Positions 10,208 to 31,728 of a stretch of DNA of 64,000 nt are shown here, one piece after another (positions within the stretch are counted from its first letter, which is position 1; every line of letters starts with the position of its first letter). A program made the position numbers and the translations under genes. Under the pieces are notes generated by a model. The model was given only the letters and a program-made list of their open reading frames with translations, had not been told where the DNA came from and searched no databases. Location: assembly GCF_021049265.1 (NCBI RefSeq), contig NZ_CP088018.1, positions 1,674,001 to 1,738,000 of the forward strand. The letters run 5' to 3'. Origin of the DNA: Ruania suaedae. Its GTDB lineage: Bacteria; Actinomycetota; Actinomycetes; Actinomycetales; Beutenbergiaceae.

Positions 10208-10286
10208 CTCACAGGTCCCTTCGTGTGACAGCCCGGCGACCATGCCGGGAGGTCGGTACCCGCCGCGCCGTCGTCGGAGCGACGTA

Positions 10287-10335
10287 TGGAATCCTTCCCA
10301 CACAAAACGGTAGATCACTGACGTGATCACCACAA
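10287..10335 (-). promoter_or_regulatory. Promoter and LacI-type operator of the sugar-binding protein gene
   Basis: Read on the minus strand: -35 TTGTGG (10335-10330), 17-base spacer, -10 TACCGT (10312-10307), six bases, then TGGGAAGGATTCCA (10300-10287). The last element matches the 14-bp operators at 10445, 16224 and 27136 at most positions and sits at the same distance from its -10 box. Taken alone it is the weakest of the four sites (centre GG instead of CG); the conserved spacing is what supports it. Confidence 0.6.
10313..10328. promoter_or_regulatory. Inverted repeat GATCAC-TGAC-GTGATC inside the -35/-10 spacer
   Basis: A perfect 6-bp inverted repeat fills the spacer of the binding-protein promoter, and a further GTGATC half-site follows about 13 bases away at 10341-10346. 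It differs from the LacI-type operator, so it may bind a second regulator. The function is inferred from position only. Confidence 0.4.
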
Positions 10336-10409
10336 GGGCAGTGATCAACCCGTGACCTAGCAACCGGGACAACCTGGGACGTAGCGCCGCGTTCGTCGGC
10401 GGTTCGGCC

Positions 10410-10458
10410 TTGCCGAGCGTTCCGAGCTAGGGCTAAGGTCTGTATGGCAACGTTGCCA
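10410..10458 (+). promoter_or_regulatory. Promoter and perfect LacI-type operator of the GH38-like gene and lacI
   Basis: -35 TTGCCG at 10410-10415, an 18-base spacer and -10 TAAGGT at 10434-10439 are followed five bases later by TGGCAACGTTGCCA (10445-10458), a perfect 14-bp palindrome of the LacI/GalR type with a central CG. It covers the expected transcription start, the position of a repressor site. An ATG inside it at 10444 is unlikely to be the gene start. Confidence 0.8.
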
Positions 10459-10485
10459 GATAGTGAAGGGGTCACGGCTCTCCTG

Positions 10486-16150: not shown

Positions 16151-16223
16151 CGCGTCCTCCTGGCCGTCGACATGTCCGGTGCCCATGCGCACCCTCGTGG
16201 TGCCGCAGGCCTGGGCCGGCGTG

Positions 16224-16275
16224 TGGCATCGTTACCACATGCGTTGATAGTAGCCACCTTCCCTAGTGTGTGCAA
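16224..16275 (-). promoter_or_regulatory. Promoter and LacI-type operator of the permease operon
   Basis: Read on the minus strand: -35 TTGCAC (16275-16270), 17-base spacer, -10 TACTAT (16252-16247), nine bases, then TGGTAACGATGCCA (16237-16224). The operator matches the perfect palindrome at 10445 at 12 of 14 positions and covers the expected transcription start. Confidence 0.75.
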
Positions 16276-16298: not shown

Positions 16299-17066
16299 TC
16301 AGGGCGCCACCACGACGCGGGGCACGAGCTCGCGCCACTGGCTGAGCGCCGGCTCGTCCGCGCCCCGGTCGGTGACGACCACGTCGATCTGGTCCCAGCG
16401 CAGGAACCTCAGGGGAGCGCGCGCGGTCGCCTTGGAGTGGTCGACCAGAAGGATGGTGCGCTCGGCGCGCTCGGAGAGGATCTGTTTGACCTCCGCATCC
16501 CAGGCGGCCGTGCAGTACAGGCCGTCCGCGGCAACGGCCACCGCGGAGATCAGTGCCACATCGGCCGCCAGATCGGCGGCGCCCGCGCGGGTGGCGGGCC
16601 CGCCGAAGGAGCGCGTGGGCGAGTGGTAGGTGCCACCGAGCCCGATGAGTTCGAGGTCGCTGCGATGCTCGCAGGCGCTCAGGACCGGCATCGAGTGGGA
16701 GATCACCCGGTATCCGCCGGGCAGCAGCGCGGCGAGCGCGGCGACGGTGGTGCCGGCGTCCAGTGCCAGCGTGTCGGCCTCCTCCAGGAGCGGCAACACG
16801 GCTCGCGCGATGGCCTGTTTGGGGGCCTGTGAGCGACGTTCTCGCCGGTCGAAGGTCTCCAGTCCGGTGGCGTCGGGCGCAGTGGCCCCTCCCGGCACGC
16901 GCCGGGCCAGGCCGTCGGTGTCGAGCTGGGTCAGGTCGCGGCGGATGGTCATCTCCGAGACGCCGAGCTCGGCCGCGACGTCCTTGGAGGCCACGTAACC
17001 GCGATCGCGCAGCCGCCGGAGCAGGTCCTCGCGGCGGGTCGGGGCGTCGGTGTAGCGCACGCGCAC
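16299..17066 (-). CDS. DeoR/GlpR-family transcriptional regulator
   Basis: A 255-residue sugar-phosphate-responsive regulator. The N-terminal DeoR helix-turn-helix reads DVAAELGVSEMTIRRDLTQL, and the sensor domain has the ISOCOT-fold signatures ALDAGTTVAALAALL and a VDHSKATA segment. It is divergent from the aldolase-led operon, with an inverted repeat in the shared promoter, so it probably represses that operon until a phosphorylated sugar accumulates. The start is GTG at 17066 or GTG at 17060. Confidence 0.88.
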   Translation of the reverse strand: MRVRYTDAPTRREDLLRRLRDRGYVASKDVAAELGVSEMTIRRDLTQLDTDGLARRVPGGATAPDATGLETFDRRERRSQAPKQAIARAVLPLLEEADTLALDAGTTVAALAALLPGGYRVISHSMPVLSACEHRSDLELIGLGGTYHSPTRSFGGPATRAGAADLAADVALISAVAVAADGLYCTAAWDAEVKQILSERAERTILLVDHSKATARAPLRFLRWDQIDVVVTDRGADEPALSQWRELVPRVVVAP

Positions 17067-17099: not shown

Positions 17100-17139
17100 G
17101 TGAACATCCTTGACCTATGTGTTCACATCCGAACAGAAT
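17100..17139 (+). promoter_or_regulatory. Promoter and DeoR-type operator before the aldolase operon
   Basis: GTGAACA at 17100-17106 and TGTTCAC at 17120-17126 form a perfect inverted repeat with a 13-base spacer, and CGAACA at 17130-17135 may be a third half-site. They enclose a possible -35 TTGACC (17110-17115) and -10 CAGAAT (17134-17139). The GTG start at 17146 lies seven bases after the -10 box, so the mRNA may be leaderless. Binding by the adjacent DeoR protein is inferred. Confidence 0.6.
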
Positions 17140-17145
17140 GGTCAC

Positions 17146-18024
17146 GTGACCACACCGACGTTGAACGCCATCGCCCGCCCGAGCGGCACCCTCGCGATGG
17201 TTGCCATGGACCAGCGCGAGAGCCTGCGCACGATGTTCGCCGATGCGGGCGCCGGCACGGTCGGCGACCAGACGCTGGTCGACTTCAAACTCGCCGTCGC
17301 CCAGACCCTCGGCACCCGTGCCTCCGGCTTCCTCATCGACCGGCAGTTCGGCCACGACCAGGCCCGTGACCTGCTCGGAGGGCGCACCGGTTTCATCCTG
17401 GCGGCCGACGCGCTCACCCAGGAGCCCGGGGGACCGGTGGAGGAGACCGGCCTCGATGACGTCATCCTCGCCCCCGACTTCGACCTCACCGGCATCGACG
17501 CGCTGAAGCTGCTCGTCATCTGGCGCCGGGACGACAAGCGTGAGGAGCGGGTGCGGCTGGCCGAGCGCTTCATCGCAGCGGCCGCCGAGCGCGGTGTCCT
17601 CTCGGTGCTCGAGCCGGTGGTCCGGCAGTCCACCGAGTCCGACGCCGACTGGGACCAGACCGCCGCCATCCGCGAGGCCGCCCGCGAACTCTCCCCGCTC
17701 GGGCCGAGCCTGTACAAGGTGCAGGTCCCGATGGCGGGTGCCGGTGATCCCGCTGCGCTGCGCGAGGCGTGCGAGGACCTCGCGCGCGACATCACCGGCC
17801 CCTGGGTGGTGCTCTCCCAGGGCGTGGCGCTACACGACTTCCACGACGCCGTCGCCACCGCCTGTGCTGCCGGCGCCAGCGGCTTCCTTGCCGGCCGCGC
17901 GCTGTGGAGCGACGTCGTCGGGGTCGAGGACGTACCGAGCCGGCTGCGTGAGGTCTCCCTGCCGCGCCTCGAGCGCCTGGTCGAAACGGTCGAGACCACC
18001 GCCCGTCCGTGGACCCAGGCGTAA
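17146..18024 (+). CDS. LacD/YihT-type class I aldolase
   Basis: A 292-residue aldolase of the DeoC/LacD superfamily, the same length as E. coli YihT. Compared from memory, segments match YihT closely: AMVAMDQRESLRTMFADAGA, ALKLLVIWRRDD, VLSVLEPVVR, SLYKV (Schiff-base lysine) and ASGFLAGRALWSDVVG (arginine that recognises the substrate acid group). YihT cleaves 6-deoxy-6-sulfofructose 1-phosphate; LacD cleaves tagatose 1,6-bisphosphate. The residue after the lysine pair is Gln (KVQVP) where I recall Glu in YihT. GTG 17146 was chosen because it fits the family N-terminus; the longer frame from TTG 17110 would run through the operator. Confidence 0.78.
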   Translation: MTTPTLNAIARPSGTLAMVAMDQRESLRTMFADAGAGTVGDQTLVDFKLAVAQTLGTRASGFLIDRQFGHDQARDLLGGRTGFILAADALTQEPGGPVEETGLDDVILAPDFDLTGIDALKLLVIWRRDDKREERVRLAERFIAAAAERGVLSVLEPVVRQSTESDADWDQTAAIREAARELSPLGPSLYKVQVPMAGAGDPAALREACEDLARDITGPWVVLSQGVALHDFHDAVATACAAGASGFLAGRALWSDVVGVEDVPSRLREVSLPRLERLVETVETTARPWTQA

Positions 18025-18035
18025 GCGGCACGCCG

Positions 18036-18695
18036 ATGACCACACGGGTCGGATTCGTGCACACGGCCCCCGCCCTGACGCCGGTGTTCGAGGACCTGCT
18101 CGCGGAGTACAGCGGCGAGGTCGGAGCCGAGGCGCTGCACGTGGCCGACGCCTGGCTGCTGCGCACCGCGATGGCCACCGGTGTCAACCCGGGCGTTCAC
18201 GCGCGCGTCCGGGCCCACGTGGAGCACCTGGCCGCCCTCGGCGCCGACGCCGTGCTGATCACCTGCTCCTCGATCGGGGAGACGATCGACTCGGCCGCTG
18301 CGCACGTGTCGGTCCCGGTGCTCCGGGTGGATGCGGCCATGGCCCAGCAGGCCCGCGCACTGGCGGCCGGTGGCACCCACCACCGCATCGCGGCGCTGGC
18401 CACGTTCGAGTCCACCCTCGGGCCGACCCGCCGGTTGCTCGAGGCCGCGGCCGGCCCCGGTGTCGAGGTGACCGCTGAGGTGGTGGCCGGTGCCGCCGAC
18501 GCCAAAGCCGCCGGAGACATCGCCGGACATGACTCTGCCATCCGTGCCGCCGCCCGACGGCTGGCCGCGGCGGCCGACGTCATCGTGGTGGCCCAGGCCT
18601 CGATGGCCTCCGCCGTGGCCGACGCCGACCTGCCCGTACCGGTGCTCACCTCTCCCCGCACCGGGGTGGAGGCGGTGCTTGCTGCCGCTCGCTGA
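18036..18695 (+). CDS. Asp/Glu/hydantoin racemase-like protein with a single cysteine
   Basis: A 219-residue protein of the aspartate/glutamate racemase superfamily with two alpha/beta lobes. The first active-site cysteine is present in LITCSSIGE, but the second position reads VVAQASMAS with no cysteine, and the protein has no other cysteine. True two-base racemases need both. One-cysteine relatives include arylmalonate decarboxylase-like enzymes, so a decarboxylase, isomerase or one-base epimerase role is more likely. It lies 11 bases after the aldolase and should act on the same pathway. Confidence 0.7.
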   Translation: MTTRVGFVHTAPALTPVFEDLLAEYSGEVGAEALHVADAWLLRTAMATGVNPGVHARVRAHVEHLAALGADAVLITCSSIGETIDSAAAHVSVPVLRVDAAMAQQARALAAGGTHHRIAALATFESTLGPTRRLLEAAAGPGVEVTAEVVAGAADAKAAGDIAGHDSAIRAAARRLAAAADVIVVAQASMASAVADADLPVPVLTSPRTGVEAVLAAAR

Positions 18696-18748
18696 CACCG
18701 GCCCTCGCCCGCAGCTCCGCTGATCCTCCCCTGACCCCGGAAGGTCTC

Positions 18749-21700
18749 ATGCATCGCACCATCACCGACGTCGGAGCGCGCGTCGCGCGCGCGCTGGCCG
18801 AGCGCATCACCCCCGCCGTCCACTCCTACCGCACCCCGGTCACCGTCGAGGCACACGCGCTGCCCGGCGAACCCGCGCCGTTCGCGGAGGGCGTGGCCGG
18901 CGCGTTCATCCCGTTCGCGGTCGGGTCCGAGTGGGGCCGGCCCTGGGGCACCACCTGGTTCCGGTTCACCGGGACGGTTCCGGCGCCGATGCTCGCCCAG
19001 GCCGACCAGCAGCGGATCGAGCTGCTGGTCGATCTCGGCTTCGGGTCGGGTGGGCCGGGCTTCCGTTCCGAGGGCCTGGCCTATACCGCGGCGGGCACCA
19101 TCCTCAAGGCTGTCGAGCCGCGCACCGCCTACGTCCCGGTCGGGGGTACCCACGGCGCCCCGATCGCCTCCGACGGTTCCTTCGAGATCTACCTCGAAGC
19201 CGCCTCCAACCCCCGCTTCGACGGCACCGTCTCCACCCTCGGGGATCTCGACACCGCGGGGGACGAGCCGTTGTACCGGCTCGAGCGCGCCGAGCTCGCG
19301 CTGCGTGAACCCGAGGTATACCACCTCCTCGTCGAGGCCCGGCTGCTGCACCAGCTCGCGATCACCACACCCGAGAGCGACCCGCGCCATCACGAGCTGC
19401 GCCAGGCGCTGGACCGGATGGTCGACGAGATCGACGCCGGCGGCTTCGACCGGGTGGCCACCTCCGCCCCCGCCGCCCGGGCCCAGCTCGCCGCCGTGCT
19501 GGCCGACCGTGCCCGGACCAGCGCGCACTCCATCAGTGCCGTGGGGCATGCCCACATCGACTCCGCCTGGCTGTGGCCGGTCCGGGAGACGATCCGTAAG
19601 TGCTCGCGCACGTTCTCCAATGTGGTGGCGCTGGCGCAGGAGTACCCGGAGTTCCTCTTCGCCTGCTCCTCGGCTCAGCAGTACGCCTGGATGCGCGACC
19701 ACCACCCGCAGGTGTGGGACCGGATCACCGAGGCCGTCGCCGCCGGCACATTCATCCCCGTGGGCGGCATGTGGGTGGAGTCCGATACCAACCTGCCCGG
19801 CGGCGAGGCGCTGGTGCGCCAGTTCACCGCCGGCAAGCGGTTCTTCGCCGAGCACTTCGGCACCGAGTCACGCGAGGTGTGGCTGCCGGACTCCTTCGGC
19901 TACTCCGGCTCCCTGCCCCAGCTGGCCCGGCTGGCCGGGTTCGACTGGTTCCTCTCCCAGAAGATGTCCTGGAACTCCACCAACCCCTTCCCCCACCACA
20001 CGTTCTGGTGGGAGGGCATCGACGGCACCCGCGTCTTCACCCACTTCCCGCCCTCGGACACCTACTCCTCGGAGTTCAACGGCCAGGAACTGGCTCGCTC
20101 CACCACGAACTTCCGTGAGAACGGCCGCGCCACCCGCTCCCTGATGCCGTTCGGCTACGGCGACGGCGGCGGCGGGCCGACCCGGGAGATGCTCGAGACG
20201 GCCCGCCGGCTGGCCGACCTGGACGGCGCCCCGCGGGTGCGGATCGAGACCCCGGAGCAGTTCTTCACCGACGCCCACGCCGAGTACGGCGAGCACGCCC
20301 CGGTGTGGTCGGGGGAGATGTACCTGGAGTTCCACCGCGGCACCTACACCAGCCAGCGGGCCATGAAGGAGGGCAACCGCCGCACCGAGCACCTGCTGCA
20401 CGAGGCCGAGCTGTGGTCCGCCACGGCCACCGTGCGCCGCGGCGCCCCCTACCCGGCCGAGCAGCTGCAGCGCCTCTGGGAGGAGGTGTTGCTGCTGCAG
20501 TTCCACGACATTCTGCCCGGCTCCTCCATCGCCTGGGTGCACCGCGAGGCCCGCCAGCGCTACGCCGACCTGACCGCGCAGCTGGAGACGATCATCGGCA
20601 CCGCCCTGGACGCACTCGCCGGATCGGGTGACGTCCCGCTCGCGTTCAACGCCACCCCGCACGCCCACGACGGCGTCCCCTCCCACGGCGCGGCGGCTCG
20701 CCGGAGGGACACGACCGCCGTCGAGGCCGTGGCCTCCGGCGGCGAGGTGCACCTGGACAACGGGCTGCTGGGCGTGCGTATCGGCGCCGACGGCACCCTC
20801 GCCTCCGTCTGGGACCACCGCGCGGGCCGCGAGGTCCTCGCCGGCCCCGGCAATGTGCTTTGGCTGCACCCCGACACGCCCAACCGGTTCGACGCCTGGG
20901 ACCTGGACGAGTTCTACCGGCACTCCGGCCACGCCCTCACCGGGGTGGACCGGCTCGAGCTGGACACCTCCGACCCGGCGCGCCCCGAGGTGCGCATCAC
21001 CCGCTCCGACGGCGACTCCACCTACGTCCAGCACCTCGCCCTGGCAGCCGGCTCGATGTCGATCGAGTGCACCACCGAGGTGGACTGGCGCGAGCGCGAG
21101 CGCATCCTCAAGGTCGCCTTCCCGCTGGACGTCCACGCTCGTGAGTCCACGGCCGAGACCCAGTTCGGGCACGTGCAGCGCCCCACCCACACCAACACCT
21201 CCTGGGACGCCGCGAAGTTCGAGGTCCCGGCGCACAAATGGCTGCACGTGGGCGAACCCGGCTACGGCGTCGCCGTGGCGAACGAGACCACCTACGGCCA
21301 CGAGGCCACCCGCCCCGGGCCGGGCGAGGCCCACGGCGCCGGCGCCACCACCGTGCGGCTGTCGCTGCTGCGGGCTCCGCGCTACCCGGACCCGCAGACC
21401 GACCAGGGCCGTCACGTGCTGCGCTACCGGCTGGTCTGTGGCGCCGACCTGCCCGAGGCGATCCGGGCCGGCTACGCCGCCGGCCGGCCACTGCGGGAAC
21501 GCCTGGGCTCGGGCCCGGTGGACCCGCTGGTCCGCCTGGACGAGGGCCCGGTGCTGCTGGAGACGGTCAAGCTCGCCGACGACGGTTCCAGGGACCTCGT
21601 CCTGCGTCTGTACGAGTCACGCGGGGGCCGCGGCCGCGCCGTGCTCACCGTGGCCGAGGGCGTGATGAGTGAGGCGATGGTCACCGACCTGCTGGAGCGC

Positions 21701-21823
21701 GAGGACGAGCAGATCGCCGCACTGGCACCACTGGCGCGCGACGGCGCTCGACTCACCCTGGACCTGGCCCCCTTCCAAGTGGTCACCCTCCGCATCGCCC
21801 GCCCGGAAGGAGCCCGCACATGA
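18749..21823 (+). CDS. GH38 alpha-mannosidase
   Basis: A 1024-residue cytoplasmic enzyme with the full class II alpha-mannosidase layout. An N-terminal beta domain is followed by the catalytic barrel starting with GHAHIDSAWLWPVRET (zinc ligands His269 and Asp271 by homology), and the nucleophile Asp381 lies in WLPDSFGYSGSLPQ. A helical bundle with LLLQFHDILPGSSI and C-terminal beta domains follow. Such enzymes cut terminal alpha-mannose with retention. GGAAGG stands before ATG. The stop overlaps the next start, so it belongs to the aldolase-led operon. Confidence 0.9.
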   Translation: MHRTITDVGARVARALAERITPAVHSYRTPVTVEAHALPGEPAPFAEGVAGAFIPFAVGSEWGRPWGTTWFRFTGTVPAPMLAQADQQRIELLVDLGFGSGGPGFRSEGLAYTAAGTILKAVEPRTAYVPVGGTHGAPIASDGSFEIYLEAASNPRFDGTVSTLGDLDTAGDEPLYRLERAELALREPEVYHLLVEARLLHQLAITTPESDPRHHELRQALDRMVDEIDAGGFDRVATSAPAARAQLAAVLADRARTSAHSISAVGHAHIDSAWLWPVRETIRKCSRTFSNVVALAQEYPEFLFACSSAQQYAWMRDHHPQVWDRITEAVAAGTFIPVGGMWVESDTNLPGGEALVRQFTAGKRFFAEHFGTESREVWLPDSFGYSGSLPQLARLAGFDWFLSQKMSWNSTNPFPHHTFWWEGIDGTRVFTHFPPSDTYSSEFNGQELARSTTNFRENGRATRSLMPFGYGDGGGGPTREMLETARRLADLDGAPRVRIETPEQFFTDAHAEYGEHAPVWSGEMYLEFHRGTYTSQRAMKEGNRRTEHLLHEAELWSATATVRRGAPYPAEQLQRLWEEVLLLQFHDILPGSSIAWVHREARQRYADLTAQLETIIGTALDALAGSGDVPLAFNATPHAHDGVPSHGAAARRRDTTAVEAVASGGEVHLDNGLLGVRIGADGTLASVWDHRAGREVLAGPGNVLWLHPDTPNRFDAWDLDEFYRHSGHALTGVDRLELDTSDPARPEVRITRSDGDSTYVQHLALAAGSMSIECTTEVDWRERERILKVAFPLDVHARESTAETQFGHVQRPTHTNTSWDAAKFEVPAHKWLHVGEPGYGVAVANETTYGHEATRPGPGEAHGAGATTVRLSLLRAPRYPDPQTDQGRHVLRYRLVCGADLPEAIRAGYAAGRPLRERLGSGPVDPLVRLDEGPVLLETVKLADDGSRDLVLRLYESRGGRGRAVLTVAEGVMSEAMVTDLLEREDEQIAALAPLARDGARLTLDLAPFQVVTLRIARPEGART

Positions 21824-23634
21824 GGATCCAGACCCACGACGGCGTGATCACGGTGGCCACCGACGCCTACCGCCTCGAGGTCCACCCGGTCGGCGTGACG
21901 CCGCCGCGGGCGCTGCTGTACGCCCCGGACGGCACCGAGATCTCCCAGCTCTCCCTGTTCGCCTCACTCGACCGGGTGGGAGCGGCGGACGAGACCTTCC
22001 GCGTGGAGCCACCGAGGGTGCGCGAGACGACTCCCGGCGTCGAGGCGGACCGGGTCGAGATCGAGGTGCGCCGCTCGTCCTCCGCGTGGCAGGAGGCGGC
22101 CGTCGTGCTCAGCGCGGGCCCCGACGACGTGCGCATCCGTGCCGAGGTGACCGGCACGGGCACGCTGACCACCGCCCGGGTGCTCGGCGGCTCGGCCGTG
22201 CTGCCCAGCGGCGCCTGCGGCCACTTCTACTCGCGCACCGCCGGGGCATCCATGGTCACCCCGAACCCGACCGAACCGGTGCAGTGGGAGCGCCCCGCCA
22301 CCTCCGCATCCGTGCTCGGGATCCTGGGCGATGCCCACCCGGGGCGACTGCACGCCGTGTTCTCCCCGCCCCCGCTGGCCGTGGCGATCGGCGAGCGGGA
22401 CCGGTGGCTGAGCGCGTGGGTACGTGCCGGCATCGAGGGGTGCACCTTCACCGAGTGGCGCTACGAGCCGCTCGACTCCGGCTTCCGGTTCGCCTTCGAC
22501 TACGACGCCCACACCGTGGTCGAGGGCGCCTTCGCCACACCGGAGATCGCGCTGCGACTCACCAATGACCCGTGGGACTGCGTCGGCGCTTCCCAGCGCG
22601 ATCTGGTCGACTCGGGACTGGCGCCGCAGCCATCGGCGCGGCCCGCTGGCACGCCTGACTGGTGGCATGAGCCGATCTTCTGCGGCTGGGGCGCCCAGTG
22701 CGCCCGCGCCCGCTGGGGACCCCCGGGCGGGCCGGCCGCCGACGGCGTGAGTGGCGCGGCGCTGGCCCGCCAGGACGTCTACGACGAGCTGCTCGGGACC
22801 CTCGCCTCTCACGACATCACCCCCGGCACCGTGGTCATCGACGACAAGTGGCAGGCCGAGTACGGCACCGCCGCCGTGGACACCGAGAAGTGGCCGGACC
22901 TGCCGGGATGGATCGCCGGACGGCACGCCGCCGGTCAACGGGTGCTGCTGTGGTGGAAGGCCTGGGACCCCGAGGGACTGCCGGCCGCCGAGTGCATCCT
23001 CGACCCGGCCGGGCGGCCGGTGGCCGCCGATCCGTCGAACCCGGCCTACCGGGAACGGCTGCGACGTGTGGTCGCCCACCTGCTCACCCCGGTGGCCGAC
23101 GGCGGGCTCGGCGCCGACGGCTTCAAGGTGGACTTCACCCAGCGTGCCCCGGCCGGGCACCACCTGCGCGGCACCCCAGGAGCGCCCTGGGGGATCGCCG
23201 GCCTGCACGCGCTGCTGGCCGAGCTGTACGCGGCCACCAAGACGGTCCGGCCGGACGCGCTGGTCGTCACCCATACCCCGAACCCGCTGTTCGCCGGCGT
23301 CACCGACATGGTGCGGCTCAACGACGTCCTCGAACGCGACCCGGCCGGGACGTTCGTGCCGGTGGCCGACCAGGTCCGCACCCGCGCCCGGATCGCCGCC
23401 GCAGCCCTCCCGGGCCTCCCACTGGACACCGATCAGTGGCCGATGCCGGATCGGGAGCAGTGGCGCGGCTACACCGCCGCCCAGCCGGACCTCGGCGTGC
23501 CCGCCCTGTACTACGCCGAGCGGATCGACGGCAGCGGCGAGCTCCTCACCGACGACGACTACGCTCTGGTCCGTGGCACCTGGGCGCAGTACCAGCGCGA
23601 TCGAGCCGGCCGCAGGCCGGTACCGGAGCGATGA
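21820..23634 (+). CDS. TIM-barrel glycoside hydrolase, GH31/GH36-like
   Basis: A 604-residue protein with a beta-rich N-terminal domain (to about residue 270) and a TIM barrel. VVIDDKWQ (residues 338-345) and GQRVLLWWKAWDPEG match barrel strands of clan GH-D and GH31, and GADGFKVDFTQ places Asp438 as a likely nucleophile. Asp456-type acid/base residues cannot be assigned with certainty. Such enzymes usually cleave alpha-galactosides or alpha-glucosides. There is no signal peptide, so imported oligosaccharides are the likely substrates. It overlaps both neighbours. Confidence 0.72.
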   Translation: MRIQTHDGVITVATDAYRLEVHPVGVTPPRALLYAPDGTEISQLSLFASLDRVGAADETFRVEPPRVRETTPGVEADRVEIEVRRSSSAWQEAAVVLSAGPDDVRIRAEVTGTGTLTTARVLGGSAVLPSGACGHFYSRTAGASMVTPNPTEPVQWERPATSASVLGILGDAHPGRLHAVFSPPPLAVAIGERDRWLSAWVRAGIEGCTFTEWRYEPLDSGFRFAFDYDAHTVVEGAFATPEIALRLTNDPWDCVGASQRDLVDSGLAPQPSARPAGTPDWWHEPIFCGWGAQCARARWGPPGGPAADGVSGAALARQDVYDELLGTLASHDITPGTVVIDDKWQAEYGTAAVDTEKWPDLPGWIAGRHAAGQRVLLWWKAWDPEGLPAAECILDPAGRPVAADPSNPAYRERLRRVVAHLLTPVADGGLGADGFKVDFTQRAPAGHHLRGTPGAPWGIAGLHALLAELYAATKTVRPDALVVTHTPNPLFAGVTDMVRLNDVLERDPAGTFVPVADQVRTRARIAAAALPGLPLDTDQWPMPDREQWRGYTAAQPDLGVPALYYAERIDGSGELLTDDDYALVRGTWAQYQRDRAGRRPVPER

Positions 23635-25220
23635 CCGCGGTGTCGGCGTCCACCGAGGTCCTCGTCTACGGCGCCACCTCGGCGGGCGTGTGCGCCGCCG
23701 TGGCCGCCGCCCGTGCGGGAGCCCAGGTGGTCCTCGCCGAGCCGGGCCGGCACGTGGGCGGGATGACCTCCGGAGGGCTCGGCTACACCGACGTCGGTGA
23801 CGTGCGCGCCCTGGGTGGCCCCGCGGCGCGGTTCCGGCAGGCGATCGCCGATCACTACGGCGTGCTGGTGGGCCACTTCGCCGGCCCGGAGCCACACGTG
23901 GCCGAGGCGATCTTCACGAGGTGGCTCGAGGAGTCCGGGGTGGACGTGCGCTTCGGCCGCCGCCTGAGCGGTGCCTCCACTCGCGAGGGCACCATCACCG
24001 AGGTCACCTTCGACCTCGCCCCGCCGGATACCCACCTGGGCGCCCACGCGGCCCACGGCAGCGAACGGGTGCGCCCCGCCGTCGTGATCGATGCCTCCTA
24101 CGAGGGAGACCTGCTCGCCGCGGCCGGGGTGAGCTACGCCGTCGGACGGGACGCGGTGAGCACCTATGGGGAGGCCCATGCGGGCCGGCAGGAGCTTCTC
24201 CCGGGCCGGCACACCATGCCGGCCTGGATCTCCCCGTTCGCCGGCGACCCCACCGGTCGCGTCGAGGGGCCGCTGCTGCCGCAGGTCAAGCCCGAGCCGA
24301 TGGTCCCGGTGGGGGCGGCCGACGGCGGAGTGATGTCCTACGGCTACCGGGTGTGCCTGTCCAGCGCGGTCGACCGGGTGCCGTTCACCCCGAGCCCGGG
24401 CTACGACGACACCTACTGGGAGCTCTACCGCCGGGTCTTCGCCCACTGGCAGGCCCACGGCGGCAGCCCCGCGGCGGGCAGGCTGCTCGGGCTCCAGCCG
24501 AACCTGCCCGGGGGGATGGCCGACGGCAACTCCCTCGGCCCGATCTCGTTGAGCGTGCTCGACGGCACCGCCTGGGAGTACCCGGACGCCTCGCCGCATC
24601 GGCGCGAGCAGATCCGCACCCACCACCTGGACCACACCCGCGATTTCCTGTTCTTCCTCAGCCACGACCCGGCCGTGCCGGAGCATGTGCGCACCGAGAT
24701 GCAGCGGTGGGGTCTGCCGGCGGGGGAGTTCACCGACACCGAGCACCTCCCGCACCAGCTGTACGTGCGCGAGGCGCGGCGGATGCTCGGCGAGCACGTG
24801 CTCACCGCCCACGACCTGCTCGGCGCCACACCCGCCGAGGACGTGATCGCGCTGGGTTCGTATCACCTGGACGTCCGCGAGGTGCAGCGCACCTGGCGGT
24901 GGGCGCATGAGCACCCCGACCCGATCGCCATGACGGTCACCGAGGGATACCTGTCCATCGGCGTGCCCGCCTACCCGATCCCGTACCGGAGCCTGCTGCC
25001 ACGGCGGACCGAGTGCACCAACCTGATCGCCCCCGTGTGCCTGTCCGCCTCCCACCTGGCGTTCAGCTCGGTGCGGATGGAGCCGCAGTACCAGATGCTG
25101 GGGGAGGCGGCCGGCTTCGCCGCGGCCGCCGCCGCGCGCGATGCGGTGGCGGTGCAGGATGTGCCCGTGCCGGCCCTGCAGGACCAGCTGCGCGCGGCCG
25201 GCGCCGTGCTCGCCCGCTGA
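23631..25220 (+). CDS. FAD-dependent oxidoreductase (PF12831-type)
   Basis: A 529-residue flavoprotein. A Rossmann dinucleotide loop near residues 10-26 (VLVYGATSAGVCAAVAAAR) is followed by an FAD-contacting GGMTSGGLGYTD turn, VIDASYEGDLLAAAG and a C-terminal SVRMEPQYQMLGEAAGFAAA closure typical of the family. Members occur beside glycosidase genes in soil bacteria, and their substrates are mostly unknown. There is no signal peptide or disulfide pattern, so it probably acts on an intracellular sugar. ATG overlaps the preceding stop. Confidence 0.78.
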   Translation: MTAVSASTEVLVYGATSAGVCAAVAAARAGAQVVLAEPGRHVGGMTSGGLGYTDVGDVRALGGPAARFRQAIADHYGVLVGHFAGPEPHVAEAIFTRWLEESGVDVRFGRRLSGASTREGTITEVTFDLAPPDTHLGAHAAHGSERVRPAVVIDASYEGDLLAAAGVSYAVGRDAVSTYGEAHAGRQELLPGRHTMPAWISPFAGDPTGRVEGPLLPQVKPEPMVPVGAADGGVMSYGYRVCLSSAVDRVPFTPSPGYDDTYWELYRRVFAHWQAHGGSPAAGRLLGLQPNLPGGMADGNSLGPISLSVLDGTAWEYPDASPHRREQIRTHHLDHTRDFLFFLSHDPAVPEHVRTEMQRWGLPAGEFTDTEHLPHQLYVREARRMLGEHVLTAHDLLGATPAEDVIALGSYHLDVREVQRTWRWAHEHPDPIAMTVTEGYLSIGVPAYPIPYRSLLPRRTECTNLIAPVCLSASHLAFSSVRMEPQYQMLGEAAGFAAAAAARDAVAVQDVPVPALQDQLRAAGAVLAR

Positions 25221-25232
25221 GAGGAGAGCCAG

Positions 25233-27098
25233 ATGACCGACGACGTCCCTTCCACCCCCCACGAGGACGTGACCGAGGTGGCACCCGGGGTGTTCCGGGT
25301 GCGCGACACCTGCCACGTCTACGTGATCCGTGCCGCCGAGAGCACCGATGGCCGCCGCACCGGCATCTCGATCGACTTCGGGTCCGGGCGCGTGCTCGAC
25401 CTGCTGGACGAGCTCGGGCTGGAGGCGATCACCGATGTGCTGATGACCCACCACCACCGCGATCAGGCCCAGGGACTCCCGCGGGCCGTCGCCGCCGGCA
25501 TCGCCGTGCACGTGCCACCGGTGGAGGCCGAGCTGTTCTCCGACGTGGACGCGATGTGGGCCGCGCGGGAGGTGGGCAACAACTACAACCTGCGCACCGA
25601 CCGGTTCTCGCTGCTGGAACCGGTCCCGATCACCTCGACCGTGCCCGAGTACCGCAGCGCCGAGTACGGCGGCATCACGGTGCACACCCTGCCCACGCCG
25701 GGGCACACGCCGGGTTCGGTGACCTACCTGGTGGAGGCGGGCGGTCGCCGGCTGGCCTTCACCGGTGACCTGCTCTATGGCCCCGGCAAGGTGTGGTCGC
25801 TGCTGGCCACGCAGTGGTCCTACACCGAGAACGAGGGGCCGACGATGGCGGTGCTCGCCTGCGACCTTCTCGCCGCCGAGGAACCGGACGTGCTGCTGCC
25901 CTCGCACGGGGAGGTGATGGACCCGGGCTCCCCGGCGCTCACGCTCACCGGGGACCGGCTGCTGCAGTACGTGAACCAGCGCCGCCCCGAGCCGACTCGG
26001 ATCCGGGAGAAGCTGGCGAACCCGTACCGCAACCTCACCGAGCATCTCCTCGTCAACGAATCGAGTGAGTCCCGCAGCTATGTGCTCGTCTCCGAGACCG
26101 GCGCGGCGATGGTGATCGACTACGGCTACGACATGACCACCGGCCTGCCACCCGGTCACGAGCGCGCCGCCCGCCGCCCCTGGCTGGCGAGCCTGCCCGG
26201 GCTGAAGGCGCACCACCCGGTCGACCGGGTGGAGGTGGCGCTGCCCACCCACTACCACGACGACCACGTGGCGGGGATGAACCTGCTTCGCGACGTCGAG
26301 GGCACGCAGGTGTGGAGCCCGGCGAACGTGGCCCCGATCCTGGCCGACCCGCTGCGCTACGACCTGCCGTGCCTGTGGCACGACCCGATCCCGAGCGACC
26401 GCGAGCTCCCGATCGGGGAGACCTTCACCTGGCACGAGTACGAGATCACCGTGCACGAGCTGCCCGGGCACACCCTGTTCGCCGCCGCCTTCGAGTTCGT
26501 CGTGGACGGCGTGCGGGTACTGGTCACCGGTGACCAGCAGGACGGTCAGGGGGTCCCCGGGAAGACGCGCGAGACGCGGAACTACCAGTACCACAACAGA
26601 TTCCGCATCACCGACTACCGCGACAGCGCCGCCCTGTACCAGCGGGTGGAGCCGGGGCTGATGATCACCGGTCACTGGCAGGAACGCTGGGTCACCGAGG
26701 ACTACCTGCAGATGCTGGCCACCGAAGCCGAGGAACTGGTGCAGATCCACCACGACCTGCTGCCGCTGACCGAGCTGGACACCGGCGCCGACGGCGTCTT
26801 CGCCCGGATCGAGCCCTACCGGTCCACGGTGGGCTCCGGGCGGAGCGCCACCTACGAGATCTGGGTCCGCAACCCCCTCCGGGAGGAGGCCACGGCCCAC
26901 CTGACGCCGGTGCTGCCCGAGGGGTGGACCGCCGTCGGGCCGGAGCCGGTCACGCTCGCCCCGGGCGGCACGGCCCGGGTCACCTTCACCGTGACCGCCA
27001 CCGGCCCACGACGGCGCCGCGCCCGGATCGCCGTGGACGTCACCGTCGATCACCTGCGCCTCGGCCAGCATGCGGAGGCCCTCGTGGACGTGATCTGA
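25233..27098 (+). CDS. Tandem metallo-beta-lactamase-fold hydrolase with C-terminal Ig-like domain
   Basis: A 621-residue protein with two MBL domains in one chain. Domain 1 has HHHRDQ (73-78; the last metal-binding His is Gln), then PGH (His158), TGD (Asp179) and SHG (His225). Domain 2 has the complete HYHDDH (340-345), PGH (413), TGD (434) and TGH (481) set. Residues 525-621 form a beta-sandwich like the NEW3/alpha-galactosidase-associated domain. MBL enzymes hydrolyse esters, lactones or thioesters, so a lactone made by the neighbouring flavoprotein is a possible substrate (inference). The AGGAGAG ribosome site is clear. Confidence 0.8.
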   Translation: MTDDVPSTPHEDVTEVAPGVFRVRDTCHVYVIRAAESTDGRRTGISIDFGSGRVLDLLDELGLEAITDVLMTHHHRDQAQGLPRAVAAGIAVHVPPVEAELFSDVDAMWAAREVGNNYNLRTDRFSLLEPVPITSTVPEYRSAEYGGITVHTLPTPGHTPGSVTYLVEAGGRRLAFTGDLLYGPGKVWSLLATQWSYTENEGPTMAVLACDLLAAEEPDVLLPSHGEVMDPGSPALTLTGDRLLQYVNQRRPEPTRIREKLANPYRNLTEHLLVNESSESRSYVLVSETGAAMVIDYGYDMTTGLPPGHERAARRPWLASLPGLKAHHPVDRVEVALPTHYHDDHVAGMNLLRDVEGTQVWSPANVAPILADPLRYDLPCLWHDPIPSDRELPIGETFTWHEYEITVHELPGHTLFAAAFEFVVDGVRVLVTGDQQDGQGVPGKTRETRNYQYHNRFRITDYRDSAALYQRVEPGLMITGHWQERWVTEDYLQMLATEAEELVQIHHDLLPLTELDTGADGVFARIEPYRSTVGSGRSATYEIWVRNPLREEATAHLTPVLPEGWTAVGPEPVTLAPGGTARVTFTVTATGPRRRRARIAVDVTVDHLRLGQHAEALVDVI

Positions 27099-27100
27099 CG

Positions 27101-27149
27101 TTGCCACCGCCGGACCGATCCCGTACCGTCGGATGTGGGAACGATGCCA
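27101..27149 (+). promoter_or_regulatory. Promoter and LacI-type operator of the second GH38 gene
   Basis: -35 TTGCCA (27101-27106), a 17-base spacer, -10 TACCGT (27124-27129), six bases, then TGGGAACGATGCCA (27136-27149). The operator matches the perfect site at 10445 at 12 of 14 positions. It starts a new transcription unit within the otherwise collinear run and links it to the LacI regulator at 13.1 kb. Confidence 0.75.
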
Positions 27150-27205
27150 CGTTCGATGATGCACGCACCTGACCGCCCCTTCACCTCCCCAGGAGCACCT
27201 CTCCC

Positions 27206-29851
27206 ATGAGCGACGCTGCGGACGCCTCCGCCGCCCCGATGTCGAACGCCCCCTCCGGCGCCCAGCCGGCCGGACTGGACGGGCGCCGCCCGCCCGCCAC
27301 CGTGGACCGCACGCTGTACATGATCGGCGCGACCCACCTGGACCCGGTGTGGCTGTGGCCCTGGCAGGAGGGCTACCAGGAGGCCCGTGCGACCTTCCGC
27401 TCCGCCCTGGACCGGATGGAGGAGTACGAGGACTTCGTCTTCACCTGCGATCAGGTGGTGCTGCTCGCCTGGGTGGAGGAGCAGGACCCGGAGCTCTTCG
27501 AGCGCATCCGGGCCCGCGTGGCCGAGGGGCGGTGGGTGAACGCCGGCGGCTGGTGGGTCGAGCCCGACTGCAACCTGCCCACGGGGGAGTCCTTCGCACG
27601 TCAGGGCCTGATCGGCCAGCGCTACCTCGACGAGAAGTTCGGCAAGCCCGCCACGGTGGGGATGAACGTGGACCCGTTCGGCCACCACGCCATGATCCCG
27701 GCGATCCTGCGCGGGCAGGGCATGGACACCTACATGTTCCTGCGCCCCGGGCCCGCCGAGGACGGGCGCCTGCGCACGGCCTTCTGGTGGGAGTCCCCGG
27801 ACGGGTCGCGGGTGCTCGGCTACCGCATCCCGCACGAGTACTGCAGCCCGCCCGGGGATGTCTCCGGGCACACGGACAAGTCCCTCGGCGCGCTGGACCG
27901 TTCCCTGGGCGACCTGATGGTCCTGTTCGGCGTCGGAAACCACGGCGGCGGACCCACCAGGGCGAACATCGACTCCATCCACCGCTTCGACCGCATGGGA
28001 TCCTTCGGAAGGCTGATCATGAGCTCACCACGGGAGTACTTCGACGAGTTCATCGCCCGCCGGGGCGGCATCGACAGCGACGAGATGGCCGCGCTGCCGG
28101 TGTGGAAGGACGATCTGCAGCACCACGCCTCGGGCTGCTACTCCGCCCACTCGGGCATCAAAGCCTGGCAGCGGCGCGCCCAGAACGCGGTGCTCTCCGC
28201 CGAGCGGTGGGCGGCGGTCGGCACGGTGCAGCACGGCCTGGAGCACCCCGGCGAGGACCTCTACCGGGCCTGGCAGCAGGTGCTGTTCAACCAGTTCCAC
28301 GACATCCTGCCCGGGTCGGCGATCGAACCCTCCTACGAGGACTCCCGGGACCAGCTCGGAGAGGCGATCGCGATCTCCAAGCGGATCATCACCCGGGTGC
28401 ACAACGTGATCGCCCGCAAGGTGGACATTCCCTTCGACGAGAGCAGCCAGCCGGTGCTCGTGTTCAACCCGCACGCCTGGCCGGTGCGCCAGGTGGTCGA
28501 GCTGCAGTACGGCGCCCAGCCGCTCGGCGTGCACGTGGTGGACGAGGCCGGCCGCCCGGTGGCCGCGCAGAAGGTGCAGTCGGTGGCCACCACCGATGAC
28601 AAGGGCCGGGCCGCGTGCGCCTTCGAGACCGAGATCCCGGCGTTCGGGTACCGCCTCTACCGGTTGCTGCGTGGACCGCAGGAGATCGAGGACGCCGGCC
28701 TGAGCGTGTCCGAGTCCGACGGCGCCACCGCGGTCGAGAACGAGCACCTGCGCCTCGAGGTCGATCACGGCACCGGCTGGGTCCGCTCGCTGCTGGACAA
28801 GCGCACCGGAGCGGATGTGCTCGCCGGAGCCACCGGCCCGCACACGCAGGTCTGTGACGACCCCACCGACACCTGGGGCCACCGGGTGGTCTCCTACGCC
28901 TGGCCGGGTGAGGAGATGCCGGTGACCCGCACCGTGGTGCGCGAGCGCGGACCGGTGCGCGCGATCGTGCGGGTGGAGCGCGAGTGGGGCCGGTCCCGGC
29001 TGATCGAGGAGTTCGTGCTCACCCGGGACGCGACCGCCGTGCAGGTGCGCACCACCCTGGACTGGCGTGAGGAGCACCACCTGCTCAAGCTCCGCTTCCC
29101 GGTGGCCCTCGACGAGCCCGAGGCCACCTACGAGATCCCCTACGCTGCGATCGAGCGCCCCGTGGACGGCGCCGAGGAGCCCGCCCAGCAGTGGGTCAGC
29201 GTCAGCGGCCGCCTGCGGGGCGAGCACAGCGGCGGGCAGCGGGCCGGTCTTGCCGTGGTGACCACCACCAAGCACGGCTACGACGTCTCCCCGCCCGAGA
29301 GCGGCGCGGACCCGAGCATCGGCGTGACGGCGGTGCGCAGCCCCGTCTACTCCTGGCACGACCCGCGCCTGCTCGACCCGGAGGGCTTCTACTCCTTCCA
29401 GGACCAGGGCGCGCAGACGTTCAGCTACCTGCTGGTGCCACACGCCGGCGACTGGCGCGAGGCGGATCTGACCCGCCGCGGGAACGAGCTGAGCGCCCCG
29501 GTGCGGGCGATGCTGGAGTCCTTCCACGACGGCGAGCTCGCCCCGGTCGGCTCCTTCGCCGCCGACGGTGGCGAGCAGGTGATGATCACCGCCGTGAAGA
29601 TCACCGAGGACGCCCGGGGCGGGGGTGCGCCCGACGTGATCGTGCGTGCGGTGGAGACCACCGGCCGGCCCGCGCGAGCGCGACTGGAGCTGCCGATCAC
29701 CGGGCAGGTGCTCGAGACCGACTTCGGCCCGCACCAGGTCCGTACCTTCCGGATCGCCGCCGACGGCGCCGTCACCGAGACCGATCTGGTCGAGTGGCCG
29801 CTCCCCGACGGGCCGGTCGCCGAGATCAACACGCATCCGCTGGGGCAGTGA
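27206..29851 (+). CDS. GH38 alpha-mannosidase-type hydrolase
   Basis: An 881-residue cytoplasmic GH38 enzyme, shorter than and clearly different from the 1024-residue one. The zinc motif GATHLDPVWLWPWQEG gives His44 and Asp46, and the nucleophile is Asp156 in GMNVDPFGHHAMIP. FNQFHDILPGSAIE and a C-terminal beta region follow. Bacterial relatives act on alpha-mannosides, including unusual linkages. An extra 30-residue Ala/Pro-rich N-terminus precedes the barrel. Its stop overlaps the next start. Confidence 0.88.
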   Translation: MSDAADASAAPMSNAPSGAQPAGLDGRRPPATVDRTLYMIGATHLDPVWLWPWQEGYQEARATFRSALDRMEEYEDFVFTCDQVVLLAWVEEQDPELFERIRARVAEGRWVNAGGWWVEPDCNLPTGESFARQGLIGQRYLDEKFGKPATVGMNVDPFGHHAMIPAILRGQGMDTYMFLRPGPAEDGRLRTAFWWESPDGSRVLGYRIPHEYCSPPGDVSGHTDKSLGALDRSLGDLMVLFGVGNHGGGPTRANIDSIHRFDRMGSFGRLIMSSPREYFDEFIARRGGIDSDEMAALPVWKDDLQHHASGCYSAHSGIKAWQRRAQNAVLSAERWAAVGTVQHGLEHPGEDLYRAWQQVLFNQFHDILPGSAIEPSYEDSRDQLGEAIAISKRIITRVHNVIARKVDIPFDESSQPVLVFNPHAWPVRQVVELQYGAQPLGVHVVDEAGRPVAAQKVQSVATTDDKGRAACAFETEIPAFGYRLYRLLRGPQEIEDAGLSVSESDGATAVENEHLRLEVDHGTGWVRSLLDKRTGADVLAGATGPHTQVCDDPTDTWGHRVVSYAWPGEEMPVTRTVVRERGPVRAIVRVEREWGRSRLIEEFVLTRDATAVQVRTTLDWREEHHLLKLRFPVALDEPEATYEIPYAAIERPVDGAEEPAQQWVSVSGRLRGEHSGGQRAGLAVVTTTKHGYDVSPPESGADPSIGVTAVRSPVYSWHDPRLLDPEGFYSFQDQGAQTFSYLLVPHAGDWREADLTRRGNELSAPVRAMLESFHDGELAPVGSFAADGGEQVMITAVKITEDARGGGAPDVIVRAVETTGRPARARLELPITGQVLETDFGPHQVRTFRIAADGAVTETDLVEWPLPDGPVAEINTHPLGQ

Positions 29852-31728
29852 TGGCGGGTCCGCACGTGGAGGTGGTCGTCGAGACGGCCGATGGCGGCTC
29901 CTCCGACGGATTCGAGGCCTCGGTGGCCGTGGCGGAGCCCGGTACCGCCGGACTGCGCCCGGTGACGGTCACCGTGCGGCACACCGGAGCGGAGCCCGTC
30001 GCTGCCTCGGTCCGGCTGAGCGCCGTGGTGGCCGGATGGAGCCCCGGCGGCCAGGATCCGTGGTGGCTGATCCCGGGCGCGTTCTACGGCGAGAACCGCC
30101 CGGCCGAGTGCGAGCGGACCTTCCCGCGCTTCGCCCTGGGCGCGGTCGATCCCGAGGCTATGGTGAGCCCGGCGTGGGAGCTCCGCGCCGACCGTGCGGC
30201 CACTCCGGCCGTCTTCGGCTGGAGCGAGACCGGCGGTGTGGCCCTCGTGGCCCCGGAGTCCTCCCCGCTGGGGATGACCGGGCTGGGGCTTGCCGCGGAC
30301 GAGGCCGGTGCGCGGGTGCACCTGCGGTTCCCGTTCTCCGAGCACCCGGTCTCCTACGACGGCTCCCAGGTGGCGGCACCGGCGGAGCAGGCCAGCCACA
30401 CCTGGCAGCCCGGCGAGAGCCACGAGCTGACGGCGTGGGTGGCCGAGCTCGACGCAGACCGCCACGGGTACGCCGGGGTGCTGCGCGCCGTGCACGGGCG
30501 CTGGGCCGGCGAGGCGCCGATCGAGCCATGGGTGAGCATTCCCGAGGCCGCGCACATCGCCGCCGAAGGGCTCGTGCGATGGCACTACGACCCCGATCCG
30601 GGCGTGCTGCTGGAGACGATGGGCTTCGACCGCGGTATCGGCGGCACCGATCGGCAGGCCATGCACATCGGCTGGATCAGCGGTATCCCGTGGGCGCAGG
30701 CACTGCTCGGGTACGGGTACCGGGCCGGCGACGCGGCCGCGGTGGGCGCGGCCGAGCGGGTGATCGACTTCTGCACGGCCGAGCTCGCCCCGTGCGGGAC
30801 CTTCTGGGGCACCTGGTACCGCGCAAGCGGGTGGGCGCAGTCCTGGTCACCGGTCAAGGGGGCCCTGCACGCCCGCACCCTTGGGGAGGCGGCACTGTTC
30901 CTGGTCCGTGCCCTCGGTAGCCCCTCCGGGGCGAGCCACCCGCAGTGGCGCGCGGCCGCCGTCGGCAATCTCGACGTGATGACCGGGCGCCAGCGCGCGG
31001 ACGGCAACCTCGGCACGCTGCACCACATGCAGACCGGGCAGGTGATGAGCTGGTCCGGGGCCGCCGGGCTGACCTGGGTCGCAGCGCTGTGCGAGGCGGG
31101 CGAGCAGGGCCTGGACGAGGGCGGTCGCTACCTGGCGGCGGCCGAACGTGCGGGGGAGTACTACGCGCAATTCGTCGAGGCGGAGTTCCTCTACGGTGCG
31201 CCGGAGGATGTGGACCTGGCCCCGAGCTCGGAGGACGGCTATGCGGCCGTGCTCGCCTACGTGGCGCTGCACCGGCGGACCGGTGAGGGGCGGTGGCTGG
31301 ACCTGGCCCGCCGCGCCGCGGACTGGTTGCTGACCTTCCGCTACACCTACAACACCGCCTTCGATCCGCGCACCCCGCTCGGGATGTACGGATTCGCGAG
31401 GCGGGGCGCCGACAACGCCTCCCCGTCGAACCCGCACCTGCACGCCTACGGCCTGGTCTGCACCGCCGAGATGCTCCAGCTCGCCGAGGCGCTCGGGGAC
31501 AGCTACTACGCCGAGCGCGCGTTGGAGCACCTGGCCTGCTTCCGCCAGTGCGTGCCGCGCGTGGACGGGGAGATGAACGCCTATCGCGGCATGATCACCG
31601 AGCGGTACTACCAGACGGCGGCATTCCAGCCGAAGGGCATGATCCTCGGCCTCTCGCACGCCTGGTGCGTGGGAGTGCTGTTGCTGGGGGCCGAGCAGGC
31701 GCTGGGTGCCGGGCACGCTGACGCGTGA
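29851..31728 (+). CDS. Uncharacterised all-helical barrel protein, probable glycoside hydrolase
   Basis: A 625-residue protein I do not place in a named family. The first 200 residues look beta-rich (EVVVETADGG, VRLSAVVAGW). From about residue 230 it is helical with repeated aromatic motifs (GTFWGTWYRASGW, QTGQVMSWSGAAGLTW, SSEDGYAAVLAYVALHRRTG, RYTYNTAFDPRTPLGMYGF), a pattern typical of (alpha/alpha)6-barrel hydrolases or epimerases. It lacks a signal peptide. ATG overlaps the GH38 stop, and a much longer open frame upstream is the GH38 gene read in another frame. The co-transcription suggests the same substrate. Confidence 0.6.
   Translation: MAGPHVEVVVETADGGSSDGFEASVAVAEPGTAGLRPVTVTVRHTGAEPVAASVRLSAVVAGWSPGGQDPWWLIPGAFYGENRPAECERTFPRFALGAVDPEAMVSPAWELRADRAATPAVFGWSETGGVALVAPESSPLGMTGLGLAADEAGARVHLRFPFSEHPVSYDGSQVAAPAEQASHTWQPGESHELTAWVAELDADRHGYAGVLRAVHGRWAGEAPIEPWVSIPEAAHIAAEGLVRWHYDPDPGVLLETMGFDRGIGGTDRQAMHIGWISGIPWAQALLGYGYRAGDAAAVGAAERVIDFCTAELAPCGTFWGTWYRASGWAQSWSPVKGALHARTLGEAALFLVRALGSPSGASHPQWRAAAVGNLDVMTGRQRADGNLGTLHHMQTGQVMSWSGAAGLTWVAALCEAGEQGLDEGGRYLAAAERAGEYYAQFVEAEFLYGAPEDVDLAPSSEDGYAAVLAYVALHRRTGEGRWLDLARRAADWLLTFRYTYNTAFDPRTPLGMYGFARRGADNASPSNPHLHAYGLVCTAEMLQLAEALGDSYYAERALEHLACFRQCVPRVDGEMNAYRGMITERYYQTAAFQPKGMILGLSHAWCVGVLLLGAEQALGAGHADA

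Follow-up and report, generated by a model that had tools for sequence, protein, structure and literature searches.

Which compound would a bacterium break down with α-mannosidase-type enzymes of glycoside hydrolase (GH) family 38, a flavoprotein, a tandem metallo-β-lactamase-fold (MBL) protein, a racemase-fold protein (RAC) and a YihT-like aldolase, all encoded in one run? The question is raised by a 64,000-nucleotide stretch of the Ruania suaedae genome (contig NZ_CP088018.1, positions 1,674,001 to 1,738,000, forward strand), called the window here and used for all position numbers unless stated. In the reading that we favour, which has about an even chance of being right, positions 8825-31728 would form a portable catabolic unit for an α-manno-type glycoside, with a branch through a kinase and a dihydroxyacetone phosphate (DHAP) aldolase; we infer its substrate and its enzyme reactions from sequence. 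A cluster for an imported glycoside is of a known kind; the enzyme set is unusual, and no description of such a unit was found in the open-access literature searched.

All eight genes of a preliminary description of the window were present at 17146-31728, collinear, on the + strand and in the order given there. The several 4-base overlaps that it had noted were three in number (GH38a/GH31-like, GH31-like/flavoprotein and GH38b/last gene), and its two transcription units agree with a DeoR-type repeat before the aldolase gene and a LacI-type site before GH38b. The whole unit is larger, spanning 8825-31728 (~23 kb): it extends to a solute-binding protein (SBP), a GH38-like gene (GH38z), a LacI regulator, two ATP-binding cassette (ABC) permeases and a DeoR regulator, which places the ABC uptake system of the earlier description within the unit itself. 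The host genome is one contig of 3.56 Mb, and the 64-kb window has a guanine-cytosine (GC) content of 0.68-0.74 in 4-kb steps.

The unit was found in 3/8 same-genus genomes (the window's own, G001 and G004), in one common order and adjoining der. By tblastn, G001 and G004 carry SBP, GH38z, LacI, the two permeases, DeoR and the eight genes arranged as in the window, with identities of 75-95% for most genes, 67 and 82% for RAC, and 89 and 85% for SBP. The site is empty in G003 and G006, where the genes directly after der are homologous to those that lie to the right of 31728 in the window, and G002, G005 and G007 have other genes at the der-adjacent site. Within the genus, the block is present or absent as a whole. 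The MBL gene was found in 3/8 same-genus genomes and in 6/59 relatives.

Relatives were collected in a named-genome scan using a 7-row MBL alignment, which gave at least 364 confirmed relatives, and the best 80 of these were kept. Neighbours were counted by tblastn at 50 bits or more, with weak LacI, DeoR, FGGY and SBP matches included. The counts rest on tblastn because gene calls at high GC, made from GC by codon position, include some antisense artefact open reading frames (ORFs), and they are lower bounds since many loci end at contig ends. In the 80 loci, the MBL gene was accompanied by the GH31-like gene in 74, LacI in 63, ROK in 59, GH38b in 57, SIS in 55, ABCg in 45, ABCf in 42, SBP in 38, the last protein in 36, the flavoprotein in 30, GH1 in 18, FGGY in 14, the aldolase in 12, a sucrose-phosphorylase-like GH13, a sodium/solute symporter and DeoR in 11 each, RAC in 10, GH2 in 8, OtnK and GH38z in 5 each and GH38a in 4; among the 12 aldolase loci, FGGY was present in 9 and RAC in 10. 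The carriers include Cellulomonas, Nonomuraea, Jiangella, Microbacterium, two Chloroflexota metagenome-assembled genomes, a Bacillus and a Neobacillus, so that variants of the locus look to be spread over several bacterial phyla. Taken singly, the genes are rare. In genomes of the window's own phylum, with the window genome counted, MBL was matched in 2/396 (E 1e-20; the window genome and G066), both of which also have GH38b; GH38b was matched in 3/296 (E 1e-150) and the aldolase in 4/396 (E 1e-40), the window's aldolase being the only one of the four in the MBL-linked clade. Co-occurrence across genomes, on which the preliminary description had staked its own refutation, was thereby compared, and the genes do co-occur. 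Because of this co-occurrence, the empty site and the shared operator motif described below, the genes were taken to belong together.

The unit has its own LacI and DeoR regulators and shares predicted operator sites, the LacI-type motif standing before SBP/GH38z, the permease operon and GH38b (Table 1). The copy at 10445 matches TGGCAACGTTGCCA without mismatch and the copies at 16224 and 27136 with two mismatches each; at three mismatches or fewer the window holds 6 matches (the other three with three mismatches each) vs 1.94 expected, a number reached in 1/100 shuffles. As the motif at 10445 overlaps the called ATG of GH38z, the true GH38z start probably lies downstream. A LacI-type site was kept at three equivalent places in G001 (3426, 9305, 20567) and G004 (27878, 22022, 10987, in their own numbering): between SBP and GH38z as one-mismatch copies of TGGCAACGTTGCCA, upstream of the permease operon as TGGCATCGTTACCA, identical in both, and before GH38b as TGGGAACGATGCCA, identical and equivalently placed in G001 and on the other strand in G004. 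Over the 80 MBL loci, 62 LacI-type sites (at most two mismatches) were found in 42 loci, and 40 scrambled palindromes used as a control gave a mean of 3.2 sites, a maximum of 16 and at most 15 loci. The nearest downstream cluster gene was SBP for 21 of the 62 sites, MBL for 10, ABCf for 6 and others for the remainder, with none near 5/62; no LacI-type site at this threshold was found in 38/80 loci. The DeoR-type repeat has a single match in the window, and 0/100 shuffles reach one.

In the pathway proposed for the unit, an oligosaccharide or glycoside with α-manno-configured residues would be imported by the linked ABC system, after which cytoplasmic GH38 and GH31-like enzymes would set its sugars free. 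An ester or lactone bond, which in some versions would come from the flavoprotein reaction, may be hydrolysed by the MBL protein. One of the freed sugars, in ketose form, would receive a phosphate at C1; the kinase would be of the FGGY type in relatives, of the PfkB type in Deinococcus and an unlinked one in the window genome. The Schiff-base aldolase would split the ketose-1-phosphate into DHAP and an aldehyde, and the carbons left over may be handled, as a hydroxy acid, by RAC and an unlinked DUF1537 kinase/decarboxylase pair. A further freed sugar would, in most relatives, reach central metabolism through a ROK kinase and a GmhA-like isomerase.

Table 1. Genes and predicted operator-like sites of the unit, in window coordinates
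Feature	Position	Strand	Basis or remark
ABC solute-binding protein (SBP_bac_1)	8825..10372	-	PF01547, E 1.2e-13; divergent from GH38z
GH38z, divergent GH38-like protein, 872 aa as called	10444..13062	+	PF01074 only, 36.7 bits
LacI-type operator motif TGGCAACGTTGCCA, perfect palindrome	10445..10458		between SBP and GH38z
LacI-family regulator	13100..14182	+	NCBIfam matches; tblastn in 63/80 loci, weaker ones counted
ABC permease (presumably MalG type)	14259..15188	-	translation, tblastn
ABC permease (presumably MalF type)	15188..16192	-	tblastn
LacI-type operator motif TGGCATCGTTACCA	16224..16237		~32 bp upstream of permease operon
DeoR-family regulator	16299..17066	-	PF00455, PF08220
DeoR-type inverted repeat GTGAACA-N13-TGTTCAC	17100..17126		before aldolase (17146)
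Class I DeoC/LacD-family aldolase, clade beside YihT	17146..18024	+	PF01791; tree
Asp/Glu racemase-fold protein (RAC), one conserved Cys	18036..18695	+	PF01177, 48.6 bits
GH38a, full-domain α-mannosidase-type enzyme, 1024 aa	18749..21823	+	four GH38 Pfam domains
GH31-like (clan GH-D-like) putative α-glycosidase, 604 aa	21820..23634	+	profile match to GH31
FAD-dependent oxidoreductase (flavoprotein)	23631..25220	+	FAD_oxidored PF12831, 302 bits vs gathering score 27
Tandem MBL-fold protein, C-terminal β-sandwich	25233..27098	+	two MBL domains
LacI-type operator motif TGGGAACGATGCCA	27136..27149		before GH38b
GH38b, α-mannosidase-type enzyme, 881 aa	27206..29851	+	PF01074, PF09261, PF07748
Last protein, no known family, 626 aa	29848..31728	+	predicted β-sandwich plus (α/α)6 barrel

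For GH38a and GH38b, the N-terminal, middle and C-terminal GH38 domains all score above the Pfam gathering scores; GH38z lacks the full set, with PF01074 alone matched by Pfam. In GH38b, H44, D46, D156 and H365, which we take to be the zinc ligands and the nucleophile Asp, are invariant in 24/24 alignment rows, and in PDB the top matches carry the names Ams1 and Alpha-mannosidase (E down to 1.9e-64). The 604-aa protein at 21820 gave no Pfam or NCBIfam match. Its PDB profile match to a GH31 α-galactosidase (E 1e-06) covers only ~60 residues, and D438 and D502, to which catalytic roles were assigned by assumption, are invariant in 30 rows; the protein would be related to GH31 only distantly. Close GH38a copies (at least 63% identity) near GH38b (L030, the window, G001 and G004) were seen in clusters without the ROK-SIS pair, which may reflect shared ancestry, and a 37% GH38a-type gene was seen together with ROK and SIS in L083.

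With these enzymes, ordinary utilisation of a mannoside (fungal mannan, N-glycan or xanthan fragments), in which the accessory genes would play a minor part, is possible but unlikely. GH38 enzymes with an ABC importer, a LacI regulator and a kinase are the usual set for it, and the xanthan region of Paenarthrobacter ilicis 6C shares GH38, an FAD-dependent oxidoreductase, LacI and an ABC importer with the unit and has a sugar kinase (PMC12772297). That region differs in having PL8, GH9, GH3 and ManA; no PL8, GH9 or GH3 was recognised by Pfam or NCBIfam among the typed window cluster genes, and no word match to MBL or aldolase was found in the main text of the same source (PMC12772297). Moreover, the most constant partner of MBL is GH31-like (74/80) rather than GH38b (57/80).

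By sequence, the MBL protein has two complete metal sites, formed by HxHxD followed by Q78 (46/48 rows), H158, D179 and H225 in domain 1 and by HxHxDH, H413, D434 and H481 in domain 2; the positions other than Q78 are invariant in 48/48 rows. Its predicted model (predicted local distance difference test score, pLDDT, 91.3) matched mostly B3 lactamases, and because these matches span one domain at a time (TMq ~0.3), the fold names no substrate. A distant MBL homologue (30%) in Haladaptatus sp. YSMS36 (L128) lies near SMP-30/gluconolactonase and enolase-superfamily genes, a neighbourhood that hints at sugar-acid or lactone chemistry. The last protein gave no Pfam or NCBIfam match and, against PDB, one sequence match at E 0.14 and no profile match. 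Its model (pLDDT 76.5, eight weak segments) matched a polysaccharide lyase, AGE-type isomerases including YihS, GH76, GH94 and GH116 in Foldseek, a spread that leaves lyase, hydrolase and isomerase indistinguishable on the predicted fold.

The preliminary description had reported a missing kinase and sugar isomerase. None is present in the window cluster; in relatives, FGGY, ROK and PfkB-type kinases and a GmhA-like SIS protein are. In many relatives, a ROK kinase gene and then the SIS gene lie between LacI and GH38b, and the interval from DeoR to the aldolase gene holds an FGGY kinase gene. The SIS protein keeps H55, E59 and Q166, presumably the GmhA metal ligands, in 18/18 rows; unlike GmhA, it scores below the curated NCBIfam cut-offs (164.5 vs 209.45 and 169.9 vs 276 bits), is paired with a ROK kinase and is absent from the window genome, in which six ROK matches were found (best 33%).

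The aldolase itself is replaced in some loci. In Bacillus L080, MBL and GH38b are accompanied by FGGY, a GH84-like protein and a class II aldolase (PF01116), and Neobacillus L086 is similar, judging from tblastn and the N-terminal part of its protein. Two Deinococcus plasmids (QL22 and D. taeanensis) carry MBL and a GH31-like gene (40% each), as well as a GH38b-like gene that is 39% identical in D. taeanensis and was matched in QL22 as a piece (53%) at the edge of the locus. Both also have DUF1537-kinase genes, PfkB-type genes and class II aldolase/adducin genes, the latter OtnC-like in QL22. RAC is complete in QL22 (38%); in D. taeanensis the match covers just 58 residues. The Deinococcus class II aldolase is 49-53% identical to the Bacillus one. 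Since similar chemistry would here come from unrelated aldolases, a DHAP-type aldol split probably belongs to the pathway. Nonomuraea gerenzanensis has a separate group of DeoR, FGGY, aldolase (53%) and RAC genes (L153:6646-10541) ~1.5 Mb from its MBL gene, so the aldolase module can exist as a unit by itself.

RAC was described earlier as a racemase-fold protein, and the fold was found where expected. Asp/Glu racemases of the two-cysteine type use two catalytic Cys; in RAC, C77 is invariant and the second site reads AQASM in 10/10 rows, and a classic two-cysteine racemase was therefore rejected. An isomerase role would be a guess. RAC was matched in 11/396 phylum genomes (13 places listed), and its context was examined in the window, 8 further places and G066, with G318, G424 and G285 left out. 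A tblastn match to OtnK was found near RAC in L144 (30%) and L148 (28%) and not in L145, L146, L147, L149, L150 or L151; in G066, a DUF1537 kinase is near RAC. In L148:7077-9055 the DUF1537-type kinase adjoins the RAC homologue outside any MBL context, and in L144 and L100 the two lie within ~4 kb of each other, a looser arrangement. By NCBIfam, OtnK of L041 scores 420.7 bits, above the cut-off of 350, and those of L053 (a fragment, 265), Deinococcus QL22 (239.7) and L100 (48.6) score below it. Outside the unit, the window genome encodes an OtnK-like kinase (42%) and, right next to it, an OtnC-like protein (34%); this adjacent pair stands beside a DeoR-type gene (L152:7678-9565, at ~3.36 Mb of G000:C1). 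Tetronate catabolism by OtnK and OtnC is resembled by the DUF1537-type kinase in 5/80 loci and by the kinase- and decarboxylase-like genes of Deinococcus; unlike there, the neighbours in these loci are glycoside hydrolases and an aldolase of the DHAP type.

These genes bear on heptose catabolism, a reading that we consider quite unlikely. GH38 enzymes would release a manno-configured aldoheptose, which ROK and the GmhA-like isomerase would take to sedoheptulose-7-phosphate or which would enter the kinase/aldolase branch; there, heptulose-1-phosphate would give DHAP and a tetrose, the MBL protein would open the lactone of the tetrose to a tetronate, and RAC, OtnK and OtnC would lead on to DHAP. 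The best matches of SIS are indeed phosphoheptose isomerases (169.9 and 164.5 bits), OtnK of L041 passes the 3-oxo-tetronate kinase cut-off, an OtnC-like protein (145.9 bits, cut-off 250) accompanies the OtnK-like one of Deinococcus QL22, RAC is beside or within ~4 kb of a DUF1537-type kinase in L148, L144 and L100, and the window genome has the pair at L152. Moreover, aldol cleavage between C3 and C4 yields a C4 piece only if the sugar is a heptulose. Against it, SIS falls short of the curated cut-offs and is missing from the window genome, OtnK is in 5/80 loci, six other RAC places are without a nearby OtnK match, the C4-acid genes may be there for a different part of the substrate, and we know of no heptosidase in GH38. 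Its fuller and boldest form is slightly more doubtful: an undescribed heptose system in which GH38 α-heptosidases would cut manno-configured heptosides and two interchangeable exits would follow, one through ROK and a GmhA-type isomerase to sedoheptulose-7-phosphate, the other through a kinase, a DHAP aldolase and a tetronate branch with MBL as lactonase and the one-cysteine RAC as isomerase.

The likeness of the aldolase to YihT, claimed earlier, was borne out: its Pfam family is that of YihT, its closest solved structures are sulfofructose-phosphate (SFP) aldolases (PDB E 2.9e-59), and K191, which we take to be the Schiff-base lysine, aligns with the YihT lysine. In the tree, however, it groups outside the SFP aldolases. 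The MBL-linked aldolases form a group of their own (88/97) apart from YihT with L101 and L102 (100/99), in a tree of 17 rows with one long outgroup branch and only 3/14 inner branches starred, whose support is moderate; they also have K-x-Q for K-x-E beside the lysine and LSQGV for LSSGV in 9/9 rows. Assignment as a tagatose-bisphosphate aldolase (LacD) was rejected on NCBIfam scores below the cut-offs (138.1 vs 184 and 33.7 vs 432.2 bits). In L101 and L102, from two actinobacterial genomes, a PfkB/ribokinase-type kinase adjoins the YihT-like aldolase (42-43%), with an aldehyde dehydrogenase also in L102; these are likely sulfo-Embden-Meyerhof-Parnas (sulfo-EMP) clusters and, like the unit, have a DeoR-type regulator and ABC genes nearby.

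A sulfosugar pathway with a true SFP aldolase is a very improbable account of the locus. Beside the structural matches, it is favoured by the loosely YihS-like predicted fold of the last protein and by one source, in which SFP aldolases are split into class I and class II between Actinobacteria and Firmicutes, a split that resembles the one among MBL loci (PMC12890257). The separate tree group and its residues stand against it, as does the gene context: the aldolase has a PfkB/ribokinase-type kinase beside it in L101 and L102 and FGGY and RAC as partners in relatives of the unit, and no sulfofructose kinase, sulfoquinovose isomerase or sulfolactaldehyde enzyme was recognised by Pfam or NCBIfam among the window cluster genes. 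On tree, context and residues, membership of the sulfo-EMP system was rejected. The region is accessory, with a tRNA-Pro gene and a transposase close by, yet that unrelated genes were merely parked there is scarcely credible given the conserved order, the shared operator motif and the co-occurrence in several phyla, and chance assembly was rejected on these grounds. The tRNA-Pro gene and the rve-domain transposase lie just right of the unit (33916-35259), followed at 35815-36958 by a luciferase-like monooxygenase ORF (PF00296, partial match) and a second ORF, possibly one gene in two pieces.

Several observations weigh against the favoured reading of an α-manno-type glycoside unit. The window cluster is without ROK, SIS and FGGY; SIS was found in 0/5 of G000-G004, the window genome included, and not in G014, with G018 and G021 positive in the same search, and the only FGGY match of the window genome is at 31%. 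The aldolase is in only 12/80 loci and the flavoprotein in 30/80, some of them cut, so the flavoprotein may not be obligatory; the unlinked aldolase of N. gerenzanensis weakens strict linkage. The third GH38b genome of the phylum, G153 (46%, two in-frame stops), is not among the MBL matches, MBL relatives of ~30% in Sinorhizobium and Mesorhizobium sit among annotated genes of other kinds, and the lineages are not independent samples. The sugar pathway of the preliminary description is therefore partly supported: the linked genes, the ABC importer and the YihT-like aldolase speak for it, and the kinase/isomerase gap is filled only in relatives.

The unit is conserved and patchy in distribution, and its tandem MBL protein, GH31-like and (α/α)6 proteins, one-cysteine RAC and aldolase clade beside YihT point to a sugar for whose breakdown no description was found in the open-access papers searched. 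The operator motif and the aldolase and kinase partners make the question of its substrate directly testable.

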